Shown: piece after piece, positions 3,486 to 21,346 of the stretch
How the letters are laid out: every line of letters starts with the position of its first letter
How positions within the stretch are numbered: the stretch's first letter is position 1
Assembly (NCBI GenBank): GCA_014381545.1
Contig: JACNLL010000065.1
Coordinates: 1 to 41,581, forward strand
Source: Candidatus Desulfaltia bathyphila
GTDB taxonomy: Bacteria; Desulfobacterota; Desulfobacteria; Desulfobacterales; ETH-SRB1
DNA: 41,581 nt
Direction of reading: 5' to 3'
Notes under the pieces: model-generated
Told to the model about the DNA's origin: nothing
Database searches by the model: none
What the model saw: the letters and a program-made list of their open reading frames with translations, nothing else
Translations under genes and position numbers: made by a program

Positions 3486-3708
3486 GAACATCGAACACCC
3501 GCCGTGCCTGCGCCCGTCGCGGCAGGTCGAACGTCCAACATCGAATGTTGAATGGGAAAAAAGGAACTCAGGGAGACACAGAAATAGCTGATTATTGTTC
3601 GGTATTGGGTGTTTGTTTTTTTCATTCGATTTTAGAATTAATTTGAGGAGCGGAGCGACATCATTATTCGATGTTCGACGTTCAATGTTCGATGTTCGAC
3701 GTTCATCG
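3486..3708. repeat. Element bracketed by inverted 7-mer runs (TCGAACG ... TTCGATG)
   Basis: The left part carries TCGAACG, TCCAACA, TCGAATG and TTGAATG in register (3527-3554) with a GC-rich hairpin around 3506-3526. The right part carries six units of the opposite strand sense, TTCGATG/TTCGACG/TTCAATG (3667-3708). The middle (3560-3660) shows no ORF and contains a GAGGAGCGGAGCGAC motif also found before rodA. The element ends just before the ribosome-binding site of the mutase gene. Confidence 0.75.
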
Positions 3709-3724
3709 TAAAAGGAAATATACT

Positions 3725-5854
3725 ATGGCGATGCATCCGGATAAAGAGAAATGGATTGAGCTCGTGGAGAAGGAGCTAGGGGGGAGGTCTGTTGACTCGC
3801 TGAACTGGATGACCCCGGAAGGGATAAATATAAAGCCCATTTACACTGCCGAAGACTTGGAAGGCCTTGAATCTGTGAATACACTTCCCGGGTTTGCTCC
3901 TTATACCCGTGGAGTGAGAGCAACCATGTATGCCGGCCGGCCGTGGACTATCCGCCAGTATGCCGGTTTTTCCACGGCAAAGGAGTCTAATGAGTTTTAC
4001 AGGAAAAACCTTGCCGCAGGCCAGAAAGGGCTTTCGGTGGCCTTTGATCTGGCCACTCACAGGGGCTACGATTCGGATCATCCAAGGGTAGTTGGTGATA
4101 TTGGAAAGGCCGGCGTAGCAATTGACTCTGTAGAGGATATGAAAATCCTTTTTGATCAGATCCCCTTAGATGAGATGTCTGTTTCCATGACCATGAACGG
4201 CGCTGTGCTGCCGGTTTTGGCCGGATATATAGTCGCCGCTGAAGAGCAGGGCGTATCTGCGGATAAGTTAAAAGGGACTATTCAAAACGACATCTTAAAA
4301 GAATATCTTACAAGAAACACATATATATATCCTCCTAAACCCTCCATGCGGATAGTTTCAGATATTATTAAATGCTGCTCGGAAAATATGCCCAAATACA
4401 ACACAGTCAGCATAAGCGGTTACCACATGATGGAGGCGGGAGCGGATTCGGTTCTTCAAACAGCCTTTACACTGTCCGACGGGCTGGAATATGTAAAGGC
4501 GGCCCTTGCCGCTGGTCTGGATATCGATACTTTTGCTCCGCGACTTTCCTTTTTCTTCGGCATAGGGATGAACTTTTTCATGGATATTGCCATGTTAAGG
4601 GCTGCCCGTTTTTTATGGGCCGAGATAATGAGCCGGTTTAACCCGAAAAATCCCAAATCTCTTATGTTAAGAACCCACTGCCAGACTTCAGGATGGAGCC
4701 TGACCCAGCAGGACCCTTATAACAATATCATACGCACAACCCTTGAATGTATGTCTGCTACGCTGGGGGGAACCCAGTCTCTTCATACAAACTCCTTTGA
4801 CGAGGCTGTGGGCCTTCCAACTGAATTATCAGCCAGGATTGCCAGGAATACCCAGTTGATAGTTCAGGAAGAATCCCGGATCTGTCATGTGGTCGATCCG
4901 CTTGGCGGCTCATATTATGTGGAAGCATTGACTAACGGAATAATCCAAGAGGCTAAAAAGATTATTAAGGAGGTGGAGGATCTGGGAGGAATGGCCGAGG
5001 CTATAGAATCCGGGATGCCGAAGATGAGAATAGAAGAATCGGCGGCCAGAAAGCAGGCCCGGATAGACCAAGGCAAGGATGTTATTGTTGGTGTAAATAA
5101 ATACCGGATAGAGGAAGAAGATCCTCTTGATGTTCTTGAGGTTTCAGATTCTGTTCGTGATGAGCAGGTCGCAAGATTAGAAGAGATAAAGGCAAAACGG
5201 AATTTAGCTGTTGTGGGAAAGGCTCTTGAGGTTATTACGAAATGTGCTGAATCCGGAGGGAATCTCCTTGAAGTATGCATTCCCGCTGTTAGAGCAAGGG
5301 CAACAGTTGGAGAGATTACAGATGCCATGGAAAAGGTTTTCGGGCGGTATGTGGCTACAAGCCAATGTATATCCGGAGTTTATTCCGCTGAATATGGAGA
5401 CAGCGAAATAATCGCTTCGATCAGGAAAAGAACCGAGACCTTTATGGAAAAAGAGGGAAGAAGACCGAGAATACTTGTCGCAAAGATGGGGCAGGACGGT
5501 CATGACCGGGGGATTAAAGTTGTTGCCACAGCATACGCCGATTTTGGATTTGATGTGGATATAAGCCCCATGTTTCAGACTCCGGAGGAAGCAGCCAATA
5601 TGGCTGTTGAGAACGATGTGCATGTTGTGGGAGTCTCAAGCCTTGCCGCGGGTCATAAAATTCTTGTTCCACAGCTTATAGATGCCCTGAAAGAGAAAGG
5701 CGCCGGGAATATTATGGTGTTTGTCGGAGGTGTAATACCGCCAGGGGATTATGATTTTCTTTATGATGCAGGCGTAAAAGGGATATTCGGTCCTGGAACG
5801 GCTTTGACGGAATCGGCAAATAAGACGATGAAGGTTTTGGAGAAGAAGGATTAG
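3725..5854 (+). CDS. mcm: Methylmalonyl-CoA mutase, single-polypeptide form with cobalamin-binding domain
   Basis: Adenosylcobalamin enzyme that rearranges (R)-methylmalonyl-CoA to succinyl-CoA. The 709-residue protein contains the TIM-barrel catalytic domain (active-site region [58 protein letters not shown]) and a C-terminal B12-binding domain whose DGHDRG motif (His near residue 595, the lower cobalt ligand) is intact. It is therefore an active large-subunit type rather than a split enzyme. The frame is open for 18 codons further upstream, but those residues ([11 protein letters not shown]...) are translated from the 7-mer repeat. ATG 3725, preceded by AAAGGAAA, is the better start. The stop TAG lies in a GGATTAGGGGATTAG repeat. 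Confidence 0.97.
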
Positions 5855-5878: not shown

Positions 5879-5882
5879 TATA

Positions 5883-6131
5883 TTTCACCGCCCGCTTCGC
5901 TCAAGGCGCAGAGACCGCAGAGGGAAAATATTATTTCTTTTCTGCTGAGAGGGCAGAAAAGAAATTATCTCCATCGCTTCGCGATTTTTAAGGATACCAA
6001 AAAATCGAATATTATCTTAAGAAACGCATTATTAAGATTGTCATTAGACGGGTTGGTTTTTTAAATTGTCGCCTCTCACGACAATTTAAAAGAATAAATT
6101 TCTCAGCGTTCTTTGCGGCTCTGCGGTGATA
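5883..6131. repeat. Terminal-inverted-repeat element with twin hairpins between mcm and meaB
   Basis: About 250 bp bounded by TTTCACCGC... and ...CTCTGCGGTGATA, with CGCAGAG motifs on both sides. It contains four hairpins: 5934-5964 (12-bp perfect stem, loop TGAGAGG), 5973-5985 (ATCGC-TTC-GCGAT), 6014-6038 (ATCTTAA/TTAAGAT) and 6061-6089 (11-bp perfect stem TTAAATTGTCG, loop CCTCTCA). The first and last loops are exact reverse complements. No coding potential is visible. The 312-bp gap between mcm and meaB is filled by this element and the flanking direct repeats. Confidence 0.75.
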
Positions 6132-6166
6132 AAAAAAGCTTAGGGATTAAATTTAAATACTAAAAA

Positions 6167-7141
6167 ATGATTGCGGATAATCCTCAATATTATATCCAGG
6201 GGGTACTGAAGCGGGACAGGCCTGTGCTTGCAAAGACTATTACGCTGATTGAAAGCTCCCTTGCATCCCATCAGGATTTGGCGAGGACAATTATCGACAG
6301 CCTTCTTCCTTATACTGGGAAGGCTGTGCGGTTAGGGATAACCGGGATTCCGGGCGCTGGTAAAAGCACTTTTATTGAGAGCCTTGGCATGACCCTTGTC
6401 GAGAATGGACGTCAGGTGGCTGTTCTCGCAGTTGATCCAAGCAGCACAAGAAGCGGCGGGAGCATCCTTGCGGACAAGACCCGAATGGAAAGGCTGTCTG
6501 TTGAAAAAAAGGCTTTTATCCGGCCATCTCCATCAGGCGGTACTCTTGGTGGGGTTGCGAGGAAAACCAGAGAGACAATGCTTGTCTGCGAAGCAGCCGG
6601 CTTTGATGTAATCATCGTTGAAACGGTCGGAGTCGGCCAGTCTGAAACCGCTGTGGCATCAATGGTCGATTTTTTTCTGGTTCTTATGCTGGCAGGGACC
6701 GGAGATGAGCTTCAGGGAATTAAAAAAGGGGTTTCTGAGCTGGCTGACGCCATAGCCATAAACAAGGCGGACGGCAATAATATTGAAAAAGCAAAAAGGG
6801 CAAAAAAGGAGTATGAAACCGCACTGCATTTGTTGAGCCCTGCATCTCCGACCTGGACGCCTCCTGTTTTGACGTGCAGCGCCCTTGAAATGACTGGTAT
6901 TGACGATATATGGGAGACTGTTTTAGATCACAGGCAAAGTCTTATTGCCACGGGCGAACTGGAGGCAAAACGGAAAAAACAGGCTGTTGACTGGATGTGG
7001 TCTTTGCTGGAGGAAGGGCTTAAAGAGAGGTTTTATAATAATCCTGATGTTAAAAGGCTGCTGCCGAAGATGAAAAGAGAAGTGGAGAAAGGCTTAATCG
7101 CACCAACAAATGCGGCGCAGAGACTGCTTAATTTTTTGTAG
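6167..7141 (+). CDS. meaB: Methylmalonyl-CoA mutase-associated GTPase (MeaB/ArgK family)
   Basis: G-protein chaperone that gates cobalamin loading of methylmalonyl-CoA mutase and protects it from inactivation. The 324-residue length is usual. Motifs are the P-loop GIPGAGKST (about residues 60-68), the switch/base regions VLAVDPSSTRSGGSILADKTRM and IIVETVGVGQSE, the guanine-specifying NKADG, and the family C-terminal helical part. The ATG at 6167 is preceded only by an A-rich stretch (no strong Shine-Dalgarno), and the preceding 27 nt are a copy of a local direct repeat. Its position just after the mutase gene is the classical arrangement. The product is cytosolic. Confidence 0.95.
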   Translation: MIADNPQYYIQGVLKRDRPVLAKTITLIESSLASHQDLARTIIDSLLPYTGKAVRLGITGIPGAGKSTFIESLGMTLVENGRQVAVLAVDPSSTRSGGSILADKTRMERLSVEKKAFIRPSPSGGTLGGVARKTRETMLVCEAAGFDVIIVETVGVGQSETAVASMVDFFLVLMLAGTGDELQGIKKGVSELADAIAINKADGNNIEKAKRAKKEYETALHLLSPASPTWTPPVLTCSALEMTGIDDIWETVLDHRQSLIATGELEAKRKKQAVDWMWSLLEEGLKERFYNNPDVKRLLPKMKREVEKGLIAPTNAAQRLLNFL

Positions 7142-9433: not shown

Positions 9434-11475
9434 GCGATCATAATCAGGTGAAAATTGCGAAAATGGATTACAGCAAGGACAGGCCCAAGGCAAAAAACCC
9501 TCTTAAAATAATGGATTTATCCTTGCGTGACGGCCATCAGTCTTTGTTTGCTACAAGGGGACGTACTGAAGATATGATTCCTGTTGCGGAAATGATGGAT
9601 AAAGTCGGGTTCTGGGCCGTGGAAACATGGGGAGGCGCCACTTTTGACACTATGCACCGTTTTTTGAATGAGGACCCATGGGAAAGGATCAGGGTTTTAA
9701 AAAGATATTTTAAAAAGACCCCAATGTCCATGCTGCTCAGGGCGCAAAACCTGGTGGGATACAGGAATTACGCCGATGATGTTGCCAAAGCGTTTGTTGA
9801 CAGAGCTGCCGCAAACGGCATTGATGTTTTCAGGATATTTGATGCTTTAAATGACTTTCGTAACTTTAAGACGGTTGTCCCTGTTGTCAGGAAATGCAAA
9901 AAACATTTTCAGGGCTGCATATGCTTTTCAATAACCGAGCCGCGTATGGGCGGAGACGTCTATAACCTTGAATATTACGTAAATAAAGCAAAAGACCTCG
10001 AAGGGATAGGCGCGGACAGCATTTGCATAAAGGATATGGCGGGCATGATAGCCCCTTATGACGCATATGCAATTGTCAAGGCATTAAAAGCGGCTGTATC
10101 GGTTCCAGTTCATCTTCACAGCCATTTTACTTCAGGCATGGCGGACATGGCTCATTTAAAGGCTATAGAAGCGGGTGTTGACATTATTGACACCTGCCTG
10201 TCCCCTTATGCGTACCGCACATCACATCCGGCTGTTGAGCCGTTTGTTATGTCCCTTCTGGGAACGAACAGAGACACCGGATTTGATATCAAGCTACTGG
10301 CTGCCATCAACGAAATTCTTGAAAGGGATATTATTCCGAAGTACAGACACTTGCTTGACGATACAAAACTTTCGATAATCGACATCAATGTTCTTCTCCA
10401 CCAGACTCCGGGAGGGATGCTGTCCAACCTTGTCAACCAGTTGAGAGGAATGGATGCTCTTGACAGAATAGAGGATATATATGCCGAACTTCCCAGGGTC
10501 AGGAAAGATCTCGGTCAGGTTCCCCTTGTTACTCCTACCAGCCAGATTGTCGGCGTTCAGACTGTCAACAACGTCTTGTTTGACGGTGAAAAGGAGAGAT
10601 ACAAGATGATTACAGACCAGGTTAAAGCCCTGTGCTACGGCCTGTATGGAAAAACCCCTGTTCCCATTGATTCCGAAGTTAAGGCAAAAAGCTTAAAAGG
10701 CTACTCAAGGGGAGAAACGCCGATTACCTGCAGACCTGCCGAGGTTTTGGAGCCTGAGCTGAAAAAGGCCAGAGAGGATGTGAAAGACCTTGCGGTGGAT
10801 CTGGATGATGTCCTTATATATGCGCTTTATCCTGTTACAGGAAAAAGGTTTTTGAAATGGAAATACGACAAAGAGGGGCCCCCTGCGGAGGTCAAGCCAC
10901 GAACAATGGCCGATGTTAAGGCTGAGCAGAGTCTTATTAAAAAGGCCCTTGCCGGAAAGCTTGTTGAAAAGCCTGAAAAAGAGGCTCCCCTCAAGAGCGA
11001 AGGCCTGCGCAGGTTTAACGTGTTTGTTGATGATGAGTACTTCGAAGTCGGAGTGGAAGAGTCGGGAGGATCGCCGGTTGTGAGCTATGTCCAGCAGATA
11101 CCTGCATCAGCATCTGTTTCGACTGTACCGCCGGCAGCCGTAGCGCCTGTGCCTTCTGCTTCTTCTGCACCGCCTGCAGTTCCTGCACGGCCCGCGCCGG
11201 CAGCTGCTCCCGTTTCTCCACCGGTTAAGGGACCTGCGTCTGCCTCCGTGGCGCAGGGTAATGGCACCCCTCTCTCGGCTCCGATGCCCGGTATAATAAT
11301 AAGCTATAAAAAAGAGATAGGAGATGCTGTAAAGAAAGGAGAAACAATTGTTATCCTGGAGGCCATGAAGATGGAGAATGCCCTTCCGTCTCCGGCAGAC
11401 GGCATAATCAAATCCATTAATTTCAGCACAGGCGATTCTGTTGCAAATGGTGATGTGCTTTGTGTTATTGAGTGA
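9430..11475 (+). CDS. pycB: Pyruvate/oxaloacetate carboxyltransferase with biotinyl domain (PycB / OadA / transcarboxylase 5S-1.3S type)
   Basis: Transfers a carboxyl group between enzyme-bound biotin and pyruvate/oxaloacetate. Domains over 681 residues: an N-terminal HMGL-like TIM barrel (MDLSLRDGHQSLFATRGRTE near residues 29-47 with the metal-binding Asp; VETWGGATFD; HLHSHFTSGMADMAHLKAIE with metal His; catalytic Lys region CIKDMAG), the conserved PYC/OADA domain, an Ala/Pro linker of about 60 residues (roughly 560-615), and a C-terminal biotinyl domain with the biotinylated lysine in EAMKMEN (residue 647, 34 from the end). With the PccB-type protein this gives all parts of a methylmalonyl-CoA:pyruvate transcarboxylase. 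An oxaloacetate decarboxylase alpha subunit is the alternative, but no membrane beta subunit is present nearby. Confidence 0.93.
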   Translation: MSDHNQVKIAKMDYSKDRPKAKNPLKIMDLSLRDGHQSLFATRGRTEDMIPVAEMMDKVGFWAVETWGGATFDTMHRFLNEDPWERIRVLKRYFKKTPMSMLLRAQNLVGYRNYADDVAKAFVDRAAANGIDVFRIFDALNDFRNFKTVVPVVRKCKKHFQGCICFSITEPRMGGDVYNLEYYVNKAKDLEGIGADSICIKDMAGMIAPYDAYAIVKALKAAVSVPVHLHSHFTSGMADMAHLKAIEAGVDIIDTCLSPYAYRTSHPAVEPFVMSLLGTNRDTGFDIKLLAAINEILERDIIPKYRHLLDDTKLSIIDINVLLHQTPGGMLSNLVNQLRGMDALDRIEDIYAELPRVRKDLGQVPLVTPTSQIVGVQTVNNVLFDGEKERYKMITDQVKALCYGLYGKTPVPIDSEVKAKSLKGYSRGETPITCRPAEVLEPELKKAREDVKDLAVDLDDVLIYALYPVTGKRFLKWKYDKEGPPAEVKPRTMADVKAEQSLIKKALAGKLVEKPEKEAPLKSEGLRRFNVFVDDEYFEVGVEESGGSPVVSYVQQIPASASVSTVPPAAVAPVPSASSAPPAVPARPAPAAAPVSPPVKGPASASVAQGNGTPLSAPMPGIIISYKKEIGDAVKKGETIVILEAMKMENALPSPADGIIKSINFSTGDSVANGDVLCVIE

Positions 11476-21269: not shown

Positions 21270-21346
<77 letters not shown>

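Follow-up and report, generated by a model that had tools for sequence, protein, structure and literature searches.

The attC sites of integrons and the ends of IS200/IS605 elements are read by their enzymes as folded, single-stranded hairpins, in which the stems are largely free in sequence and a few unpaired bases are fixed. The enzymes concerned are a tyrosine integrase or a Y1 transposase. The ends of the element described here may work in a comparable way, the difference being that the gene of its family codes for a PD-(D/E)XK protein instead. Prokaryotic miniature elements (MITEs) offer a second likeness, since they are small non-coding copies with terminal inverted repeats and share their ends with a gene-bearing parent; an internally deleted intermediate (L116) and presence or absence at orthologous sites are likewise seen in the present family. 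Unlike MITEs, the family has a parent gene that is no known transposase, and it carries loop-tagged hairpins just inside its ends. In the main text of a 2024 MITE review (PMC10969869), the words “hairpin” and “nuclease” are absent.

The REP/BIME/RAYT systems also consist of short palindromes, often in inverted pairs and in many copies. Complementary stem changes are on record for REPs, and their conserved part is the terminal tag, the loops being variable (PMC3733652). The present family differs in having no regular GTAG/CGTC foot tag, a fixed 7-nt loop and a PD-(D/E)XK gene. The repetitive hairpin and double-hairpin elements of mitochondria are dispersed perfect hairpins, sometimes double and some with 7-nt loops, and in sponges their stems are conserved and their loops vary (PMC2800124); this is the opposite of the fixed loop and varied stems described below. 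REPs (tag conserved, loops varied) and mitochondrial hairpins (stems conserved, loops varied) are the nearest published patterns seen.

The gene found between the hairpins of the full-length relatives is a member of the GxxExxY family (TIGR04256; PF13366, PDDEXK_3). These names appear rarely in the literature searched, which left most subscription papers outside, and no description of the inverted-repeat element or its hairpins was found there. One published mention is a domain label beside a reverse transcriptase. Searches of that literature by family name, repeat string and description found no prior account of GxxExxY elements with loop-tagged hairpins.

An Element with Two Hairpins Between mcm and meaB

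The window, that is, the whole stretch of DNA analyzed, is 41,581 nt of contig JACNLL010000065.1 (GCA_014381545.1) from Candidatus Desulfaltia bathyphila. Its features of interest are as follows.

3671..5854, plus strand: methylmalonyl-CoA mutase (mcm) open reading frame, neighbor outside the element (NCBIfam)
5884..6129: whole element, about 246 bp, a MITE-like member of the loop-tagged hairpin family with no coding sequence, between mcm and meaB
5884..5923, plus strand: left terminal inverted repeat TTCACCGC...GCGCAGAGACCGCAGAGG, with an extra CCGCTTCGCTCAAGG
5933..5965, plus strand: hairpin 1, perfect 13-bp stem 5933-5945/5953-5965 (covariance model R1, 52.5 bits, match 5932-5966)
5946..5952, plus strand: loop TGAGAGG of hairpin 1
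5982..6007, plus strand: minor internal palindrome CGATTTTT/AAAAATCG
6014..6038, plus strand: minor internal palindrome ATCTTAAGAA/TTATTAAGAT
6059..6091, minus strand: hairpin 2, perfect 13-bp stem 6059-6071/6079-6091
6072..6078, minus strand: loop CCTCTCA of hairpin 2 (TGAGAGG on the minus strand)
6102..6129, minus strand: right terminal inverted repeat CTCAGCGTTCTTTGCGGCTCTGCGGTGA
6167..7141, plus strand: MeaB open reading frame, neighbor outside the element (NCBIfam)

The initial annotation had reported two hairpins with exactly reverse-complementary 7-nt loops, and both lie where it placed them, each with a perfect stem of 13 bp. The inverted-repeat element to which it assigned them was drawn too narrowly, however, at 5934-6091; the terminal inverted repeats widen it to about 5884-6129. 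The hairpin pair with complementary loops is real and beyond chance. Hairpins 1 and 2 are the only cases in the 41,581 bases of a perfect stem of at least 11 bp around a 7-nt loop, and 200 first-order Markov simulations of the window gave a mean of 0.015 such hairpins and 0 pairs with complementary loops. The folding of the element is strong compared to shuffles, both as RNA (5900-6130, z -7.26) and as DNA (5880-6135, z -7.08). An Rfam search of the element returned only matches far under the gathering scores, and a terminator-like pattern (a GC-containing stem and a U tract) is present in hairpin 1 on the minus strand only and in hairpin 2 on neither strand.

Several copies have a short GC-rich run (CCGCTTCGCTCAAGG or the like) that breaks up the terminal repeat after CACCGC, namely at 5890-5906 of the window, at L043:752-767, and at L230:300-325 and 890-917, the last locus (L230) being from Syntrophaceae.

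A Constant Loop on Many Different Stems

The genome of the window is a 2.07-Mb draft in 107 contigs, in which a DNA search gave 12 matches to the element (itself included) and covariance model R1, built on the hairpin, found 24 hairpins at E <=1. Read by eye, the copies begin and end in inverted repeats of the TTCACCGCAGAGCCGCAGAGG...CCTCTGCGGCTCTGCGGTGA type, of which several are degenerate. At E <=0.001, R1 finds hairpins in 15 of 38 genomes, that of the window included, and in 5 of 24 genera, with up to 36 per genome. Among 395 genomes drawn from the phylum, at E <=0.0001 and with stricter filters, it finds them in 15 (again including that of the window) and in 12 of 245 genera; these filters lose matches, as genome G001 yields 15 there and 36 in the 38-genome search. 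Loop-tagged hairpins are spread over different genera and families. The initial annotation had placed the hairpins in mcm-meaB mRNA; the location is incidental because the same element sits at many other sites.

Covariation of the stems was measured in 94 distinct hairpins picked for their exact loop, two loci from named genomes (L229 and L230) among them, in which stems of about 13-14 bp surround the fixed 7-nt loop. Standard pairs make up 95.7% of 1316 cells compared to 70.6% after shuffling, cells altered on both sides number 308 compared to 71.8, and the covariation score is 0.649 compared to 0.163. None of the three values was reached by any of 500 shuffles, and the signal is lost when the stem partners are slid. 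A change on both sides is seen in 13 of 14 stem pairs, a measure that carries no weight because 73 of the 500 shuffles equal it.

The rows of this comparison had been chosen for their loop, so loop constancy was tested on the partner hairpins. For each of 156 exact-loop anchors, the nearest inner hairpin within 260 nt was sought with any loop of 3-12 nt; a partner was located for 105 anchors, and 51 had none within that distance. The exact inverted loop is present in 95 of the 105 partners, and the other 10 have near-variants (including TGAGATAG, TGAGGGG, TGAAAGG, and GGAGATGG), with 0 unrelated loops. Together with the compensated stems, this bears out the early proposal that structure and loop identity are kept, with stem sequence changing under compensation. 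Among 251 TGAGAGG sites in the loci examined, the number of paired positions out of the 12 flanking ones is 10-12 at 180 sites, 8 at one, and 0-7 at 70.

The two stems of one element are also dissimilar to each other. Leaving out 9 of 168 hairpins, with loops that were unrelated or of the second type described below, none of 58 pairs has stems that differ at 2 or fewer of 12 positions, compared to 12.4 expected from re-pairing. This is explained by the hairpins being mostly two stem lineages, tied to the 5' and 3' sides of the gene. A rule that stems within one element always differ was tried and fails, being broken by L358 (distance 1) and L363 (distance 2), which are among 12 further pairs, one of which (L359) is a G001 copy counted before. 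At L002:1430-1500, a GC-rich insert lies beside the TGAGAGG loop of the left hairpin, and the outer stem is still paired.

A GxxExxY Gene Inside the Longer Relatives

On contig C94, a long version of the element has a 135-aa open frame between its hairpins, and its product is a GxxExxY protein by both family models (TIGR04256, 153.1 bits with a cut-off of 35; PF13366, 148.8 bits with a cut-off of 22). The interiors of 59 elements with two exact loops and a loop distance below 900 nt were then searched, for GxxExxY only. All five elements with loop distances of 429-641 match it (L358, L061, L229, L059, and L162, the last in pieces), and the loops of the elements without the gene are 242 nt or less apart. 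At L116, where that distance is 242, both ends of the gene are kept and the middle is deleted. L048 is a further gene-bearing element, and its right loop reads CCTTCTCA. In L048, L059, L061, L229, and L358, the gene lies between the same ends as those of the non-coding copies. The gene in the long elements is that of the PD-(D/E)XK protein and not of a known transposase.

A search of the loci for gene copies at >=70% identity gave 13 stretches that amount to 11 copies, given that L100 shows the L059 gene cut short and L162 is in two pieces. In 10 of the 11, at least one side of the gene has a loop-tagged hairpin no more than 160 nt away; the remaining copy is part of a broken gene in L041, with its right hairpin farther off. 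In the full-length copies, a hairpin stands directly on either side of the gene. The TTTTCCTTTCTGT kind of stem is present upstream in 5 of the 8 copies that have a hairpin there, the TTATTGTTTTCCGT kind is present downstream in 8 of 9, and L358 has TTATTGTTTTCCGT-kind stems on both sides. The repeated element to which the window copy belongs ends in TTCACCGCAGAG-type terminal inverted repeats and has a hairpin within each end. The window copy is non-coding, and in its gene-bearing relatives the stretch between the hairpins encodes a GxxExxY PD-(D/E)XK protein.

Presence, Absence, and Exchange at Orthologous Sites

A second element of locus L047 in the window’s genome (about 9460-9690) is absent at the orthologous site in G003 and G006, where the empty site reads TTGATGACAATT, apparently an overlapping stop and start. 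The same site has the terminal repeats only in G004, with both hairpins gone, the right end only in G001, and other inverted-repeat elements in G002 and G005. No clear target-site duplication was found at the orthologous sites compared; the only shared letters are ATG/GATG, at a single site with an apparent overlap of stop and start codons.

Between mcm and meaB, G001 has an orthologous element (L193), the right half of which matches that of the window from about 6014-6038 rightwards. In the left half, the stem is TTTTTGTTTTCCGT where the window has TTTCTTTTCTGC, and the loop is the same. Stems thus seem to be swapped as modules, in addition to changing by compensation. In the sequence at hand from G002, G004, G006, and G007, the window-type element is missing at mcm-meaB, and other repeats are present in such relatives. 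The gap in G006, G004, and G007 (L192, L194, and L196) holds different inverted repeats made of GAACATCGAACGTCCAAC-like units. Within one subfamily, L041:2630-2800 and L042:830-1020 were compared by eye, and one copy is without the right hairpin at its foot, as though only the hairpin had dropped out.

The Wider GxxExxY Family

Outside these genomes, 80 GxxExxY loci were sampled as the best of the matches listed, and 79 were measured, one being too short. They span Acidobacteria, Planctomycetes, Proteobacteria, Bacteroidetes, Verrucomicrobia, Chloroflexi, spirochaetes, methane-cycling archaea, and others. Among these best-listed matches, 45 of the 79 genes have an inverted repeat 12 nt or longer in the 200 bp to either side, compared to 1 of 258 shifted controls, with a recurring motif, TTCACCRCRGAGRCRCRGAG, read by eye; the window-type terminal inverted repeat flanks many GxxExxY genes of other phyla. 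Loop-tagged hairpins occur at few of the 80 best-listed loci, with the TGAGAGG loop at L229 and L230 and a GGAGAY loop at L231 and L232. Such hairpins are missing from most of the GxxExxY genes examined, two intact genes of the window’s genome (L049 and L050) among them, so the wider family does not need them. This little-studied family gains a genomic context, as its genes are framed by a common type of inverted repeat in a sample drawn from many phyla.

In a tree of 51 proteins, from which L298 was left out because of a stop codon, the six proteins with TGAGAGG hairpins fall into a single clade (99/90), and the three near GGAGAY hairpins into another (100/97). Both nest in a weakly supported group of 11 (81/91) that includes the hairpin-less L234 and L238. 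Loop type follows protein clade in the few cases at hand, which comprise two loop types and nine proteins. The arrangement differs in some cases: at L066 the hairpin pair (L185) lies upstream of or beside the gene rather than around it, at L231 the upstream hairpin is inside a separate inverted-repeat unit of its own, and at L232 only a downstream hairpin was found.

The PD-(D/E)XK core (D..ExK) is invariant in the 51 sequences, as D74, E84, and K86. A PDB sequence search gave no GxxExxY relative, and an AlphaFold2 model of the protein is confident (pLDDT 92.7, pTM 0.86). Foldseek matched this model best to SSO0001 (E 1.6e-3), a Cas4 protein, and next to lambda exonuclease. VIA-align gave Z 8.9 for SSO0001 (rmsd 3.4, 98 aligned) and Z 5.5 to 6.4 for Holliday-junction resolvases; middling Z values are common, and this comparison therefore supports the fold and not a function. 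The predicted nuclease fold would not by itself be a sign of DNA-inserting ability. A role in defense was considered and set aside, as PADLOC gave weak Cas4 matches only (E ~0.001, in 2 of 3 proteins). None of 50,697 phage records matched, and 8 of 72,556 plasmid records did, every one under 60% identity.

How the Ends May Be Recognized

The hairpin elements are very probably a mobile family in which GxxExxY is the gene of the full-length form. The explanation that we lean toward, with slightly better than even confidence, is a mobile element with ends that are recognized through the loop-tagged hairpin, probably by the GxxExxY nuclease; binding, cleavage, and transposition are steps that we infer. 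Recognition of the loop is probably at the level of DNA rather than RNA, and whether GxxExxY is itself the loop reader is a close call that falls just short of even. In this mechanism, the nuclease would read the loop (a 5'-TGAGA core) of a hairpin that is extruded or single-stranded at each end and would then start excision or copying, and it would mobilize the non-coding copies in trans. The stem would only need to pair because it is the loop that is read. Stems could drift through compensated changes and exchange between copies, with the reader holding the loop fixed.

More tentatively, one could consider a class of mobile elements moved by a stand-alone PD-(D/E)XK (GxxExxY) nuclease, with a range that takes in many phyla of bacteria and also some archaea. 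In one branch, the ends would be hairpins that are read by the loop alone, leaving the stems free and the loop to change only with the nuclease. The context of GxxExxY suggests a testable role as a mobility nuclease, and if this is true, one more kind of enzyme moves DNA in bacteria and one family of intergenic repeats is explained. With one loop repeated on dozens of compensated stems of different sequence, the case comes near to a text-book natural experiment in the structure-based recognition of DNA (or RNA).

The loops could instead be kept the same by pairing with each other, as the initial annotation had it with its kissing complex. The two 7-nt loops would pair in RNA or in one DNA strand and join the ends, and pairing would preserve their identity. 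Fully paired 7-nt loops are a known kissing format, seen in RNA I and RNA II of ColE1, and the exact complementarity in 95 of 105 partner pairs, sought with any loop, agrees with it. The altered loops do not: TGAGATAG, TGAGGGG, TGAGAAGG, TGAAAGG, and others stand opposite an unchanged TGAGAGG or a differently altered partner, and no compensating change was seen among the altered loops of the pair lists, although a TGAGGGG loop could keep pairing via G-U in RNA. Copies with TGAGATAG even recur in G010 opposite a TGAGAGG partner (L106, L155, and L159). At L230 (Syntrophaceae UBA3084), an open gene is framed by two hairpins whose loops are both CCTCTCA on the same strand; being identical and non-complementary, these loops cannot pair. 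The second-clade loops of L231, which read GGAGACAA and GTATCTCC, pair incompletely. Kissing is thus improbable as the reason for loop identity. In our view, the loops are complementary simply because each end is an inverted copy of the other: hairpins that are the inverted ends of one element have loops in opposite orientation.

A role in RNA is unlikely, if less so than kissing. Here the hairpins flanking the nuclease message, and copies beside host genes, would be processing or stabilizing stem-loops or sites of GxxExxY self-regulation, which would fit the strong RNA fold, the hairpins directly before and after the gene in full-length copies, and the position of the window copy between the co-directional mcm and meaB. 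The Rfam result and the restriction of terminator likeness to the minus strand of hairpin 1 count against it, and so does the lack of a G-U excess over A-C mismatches on the TGAGAGG strand (13 vs 22), which is a weak test and, with copies present in either orientation, cannot tell RNA from DNA. Another enzyme acting in trans, such as a Y1 transposase of the RAYT or IS200 type or a host hairpin nuclease, could recognize the ends and have GxxExxY as cargo. Y1_Tnp genes are indeed present in 5 of 5 genomes tested, with 5 matches in that of the window, but the TGAGAGG hairpin was found at 0 of the 12 Y1_Tnp loci examined (of 41 matches), within the stretch fetched. Foot tags of the REP type (GTAG/GTGG/CGTC) are present in only 17 of 179 hairpins, yet this is above the 3 of 179 control stretches. 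We give this alternative about as little credence as kissing. Least probable of all is that the palindromes are passive, their perfect stems being maintained without selection, through template-switch correction of quasi-palindromes and exchange between copies. The module exchange at mcm-meaB, where G001 and the window have unlike left halves and an orthologous right half, is in its favor, but a fixed 7-nt loop among many stems, genera, and families is left unexplained.

Other Repeat Families Nearby

Genes of PF05635 (23S rRNA intervening-sequence, four-helix bundle; L199-L228) are multicopy in these genomes, and 11 of 22 loci measured have inverted repeats of at least 12 nt, with other tandem motifs. 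The TGAGAGG hairpin was found at 0 of 30 PF05635 loci. It is as if this were a second gene family with a similar element plan.

At L186 (G030:C99), a different family of hairpins has 5-nt loops (CGGAA/CGGAC and GTCCG/GTTCG), mostly closed by TTC-GAA, on varied stems, and many copies lie in 5.5 kb that also contains GxxExxY genes. In the window at 1100-1161, there is an inverted repeat of TACCACGAAG/CTTCGTGGT, and the same intergenic place in G001 (L116:5800-5880) has one of TCACCGCAGAG without hairpins, so that different repeats of one general type occupy one site. A tRNA-Pro (ggg) gene lies at 21270-21346 of the window, on the minus strand.
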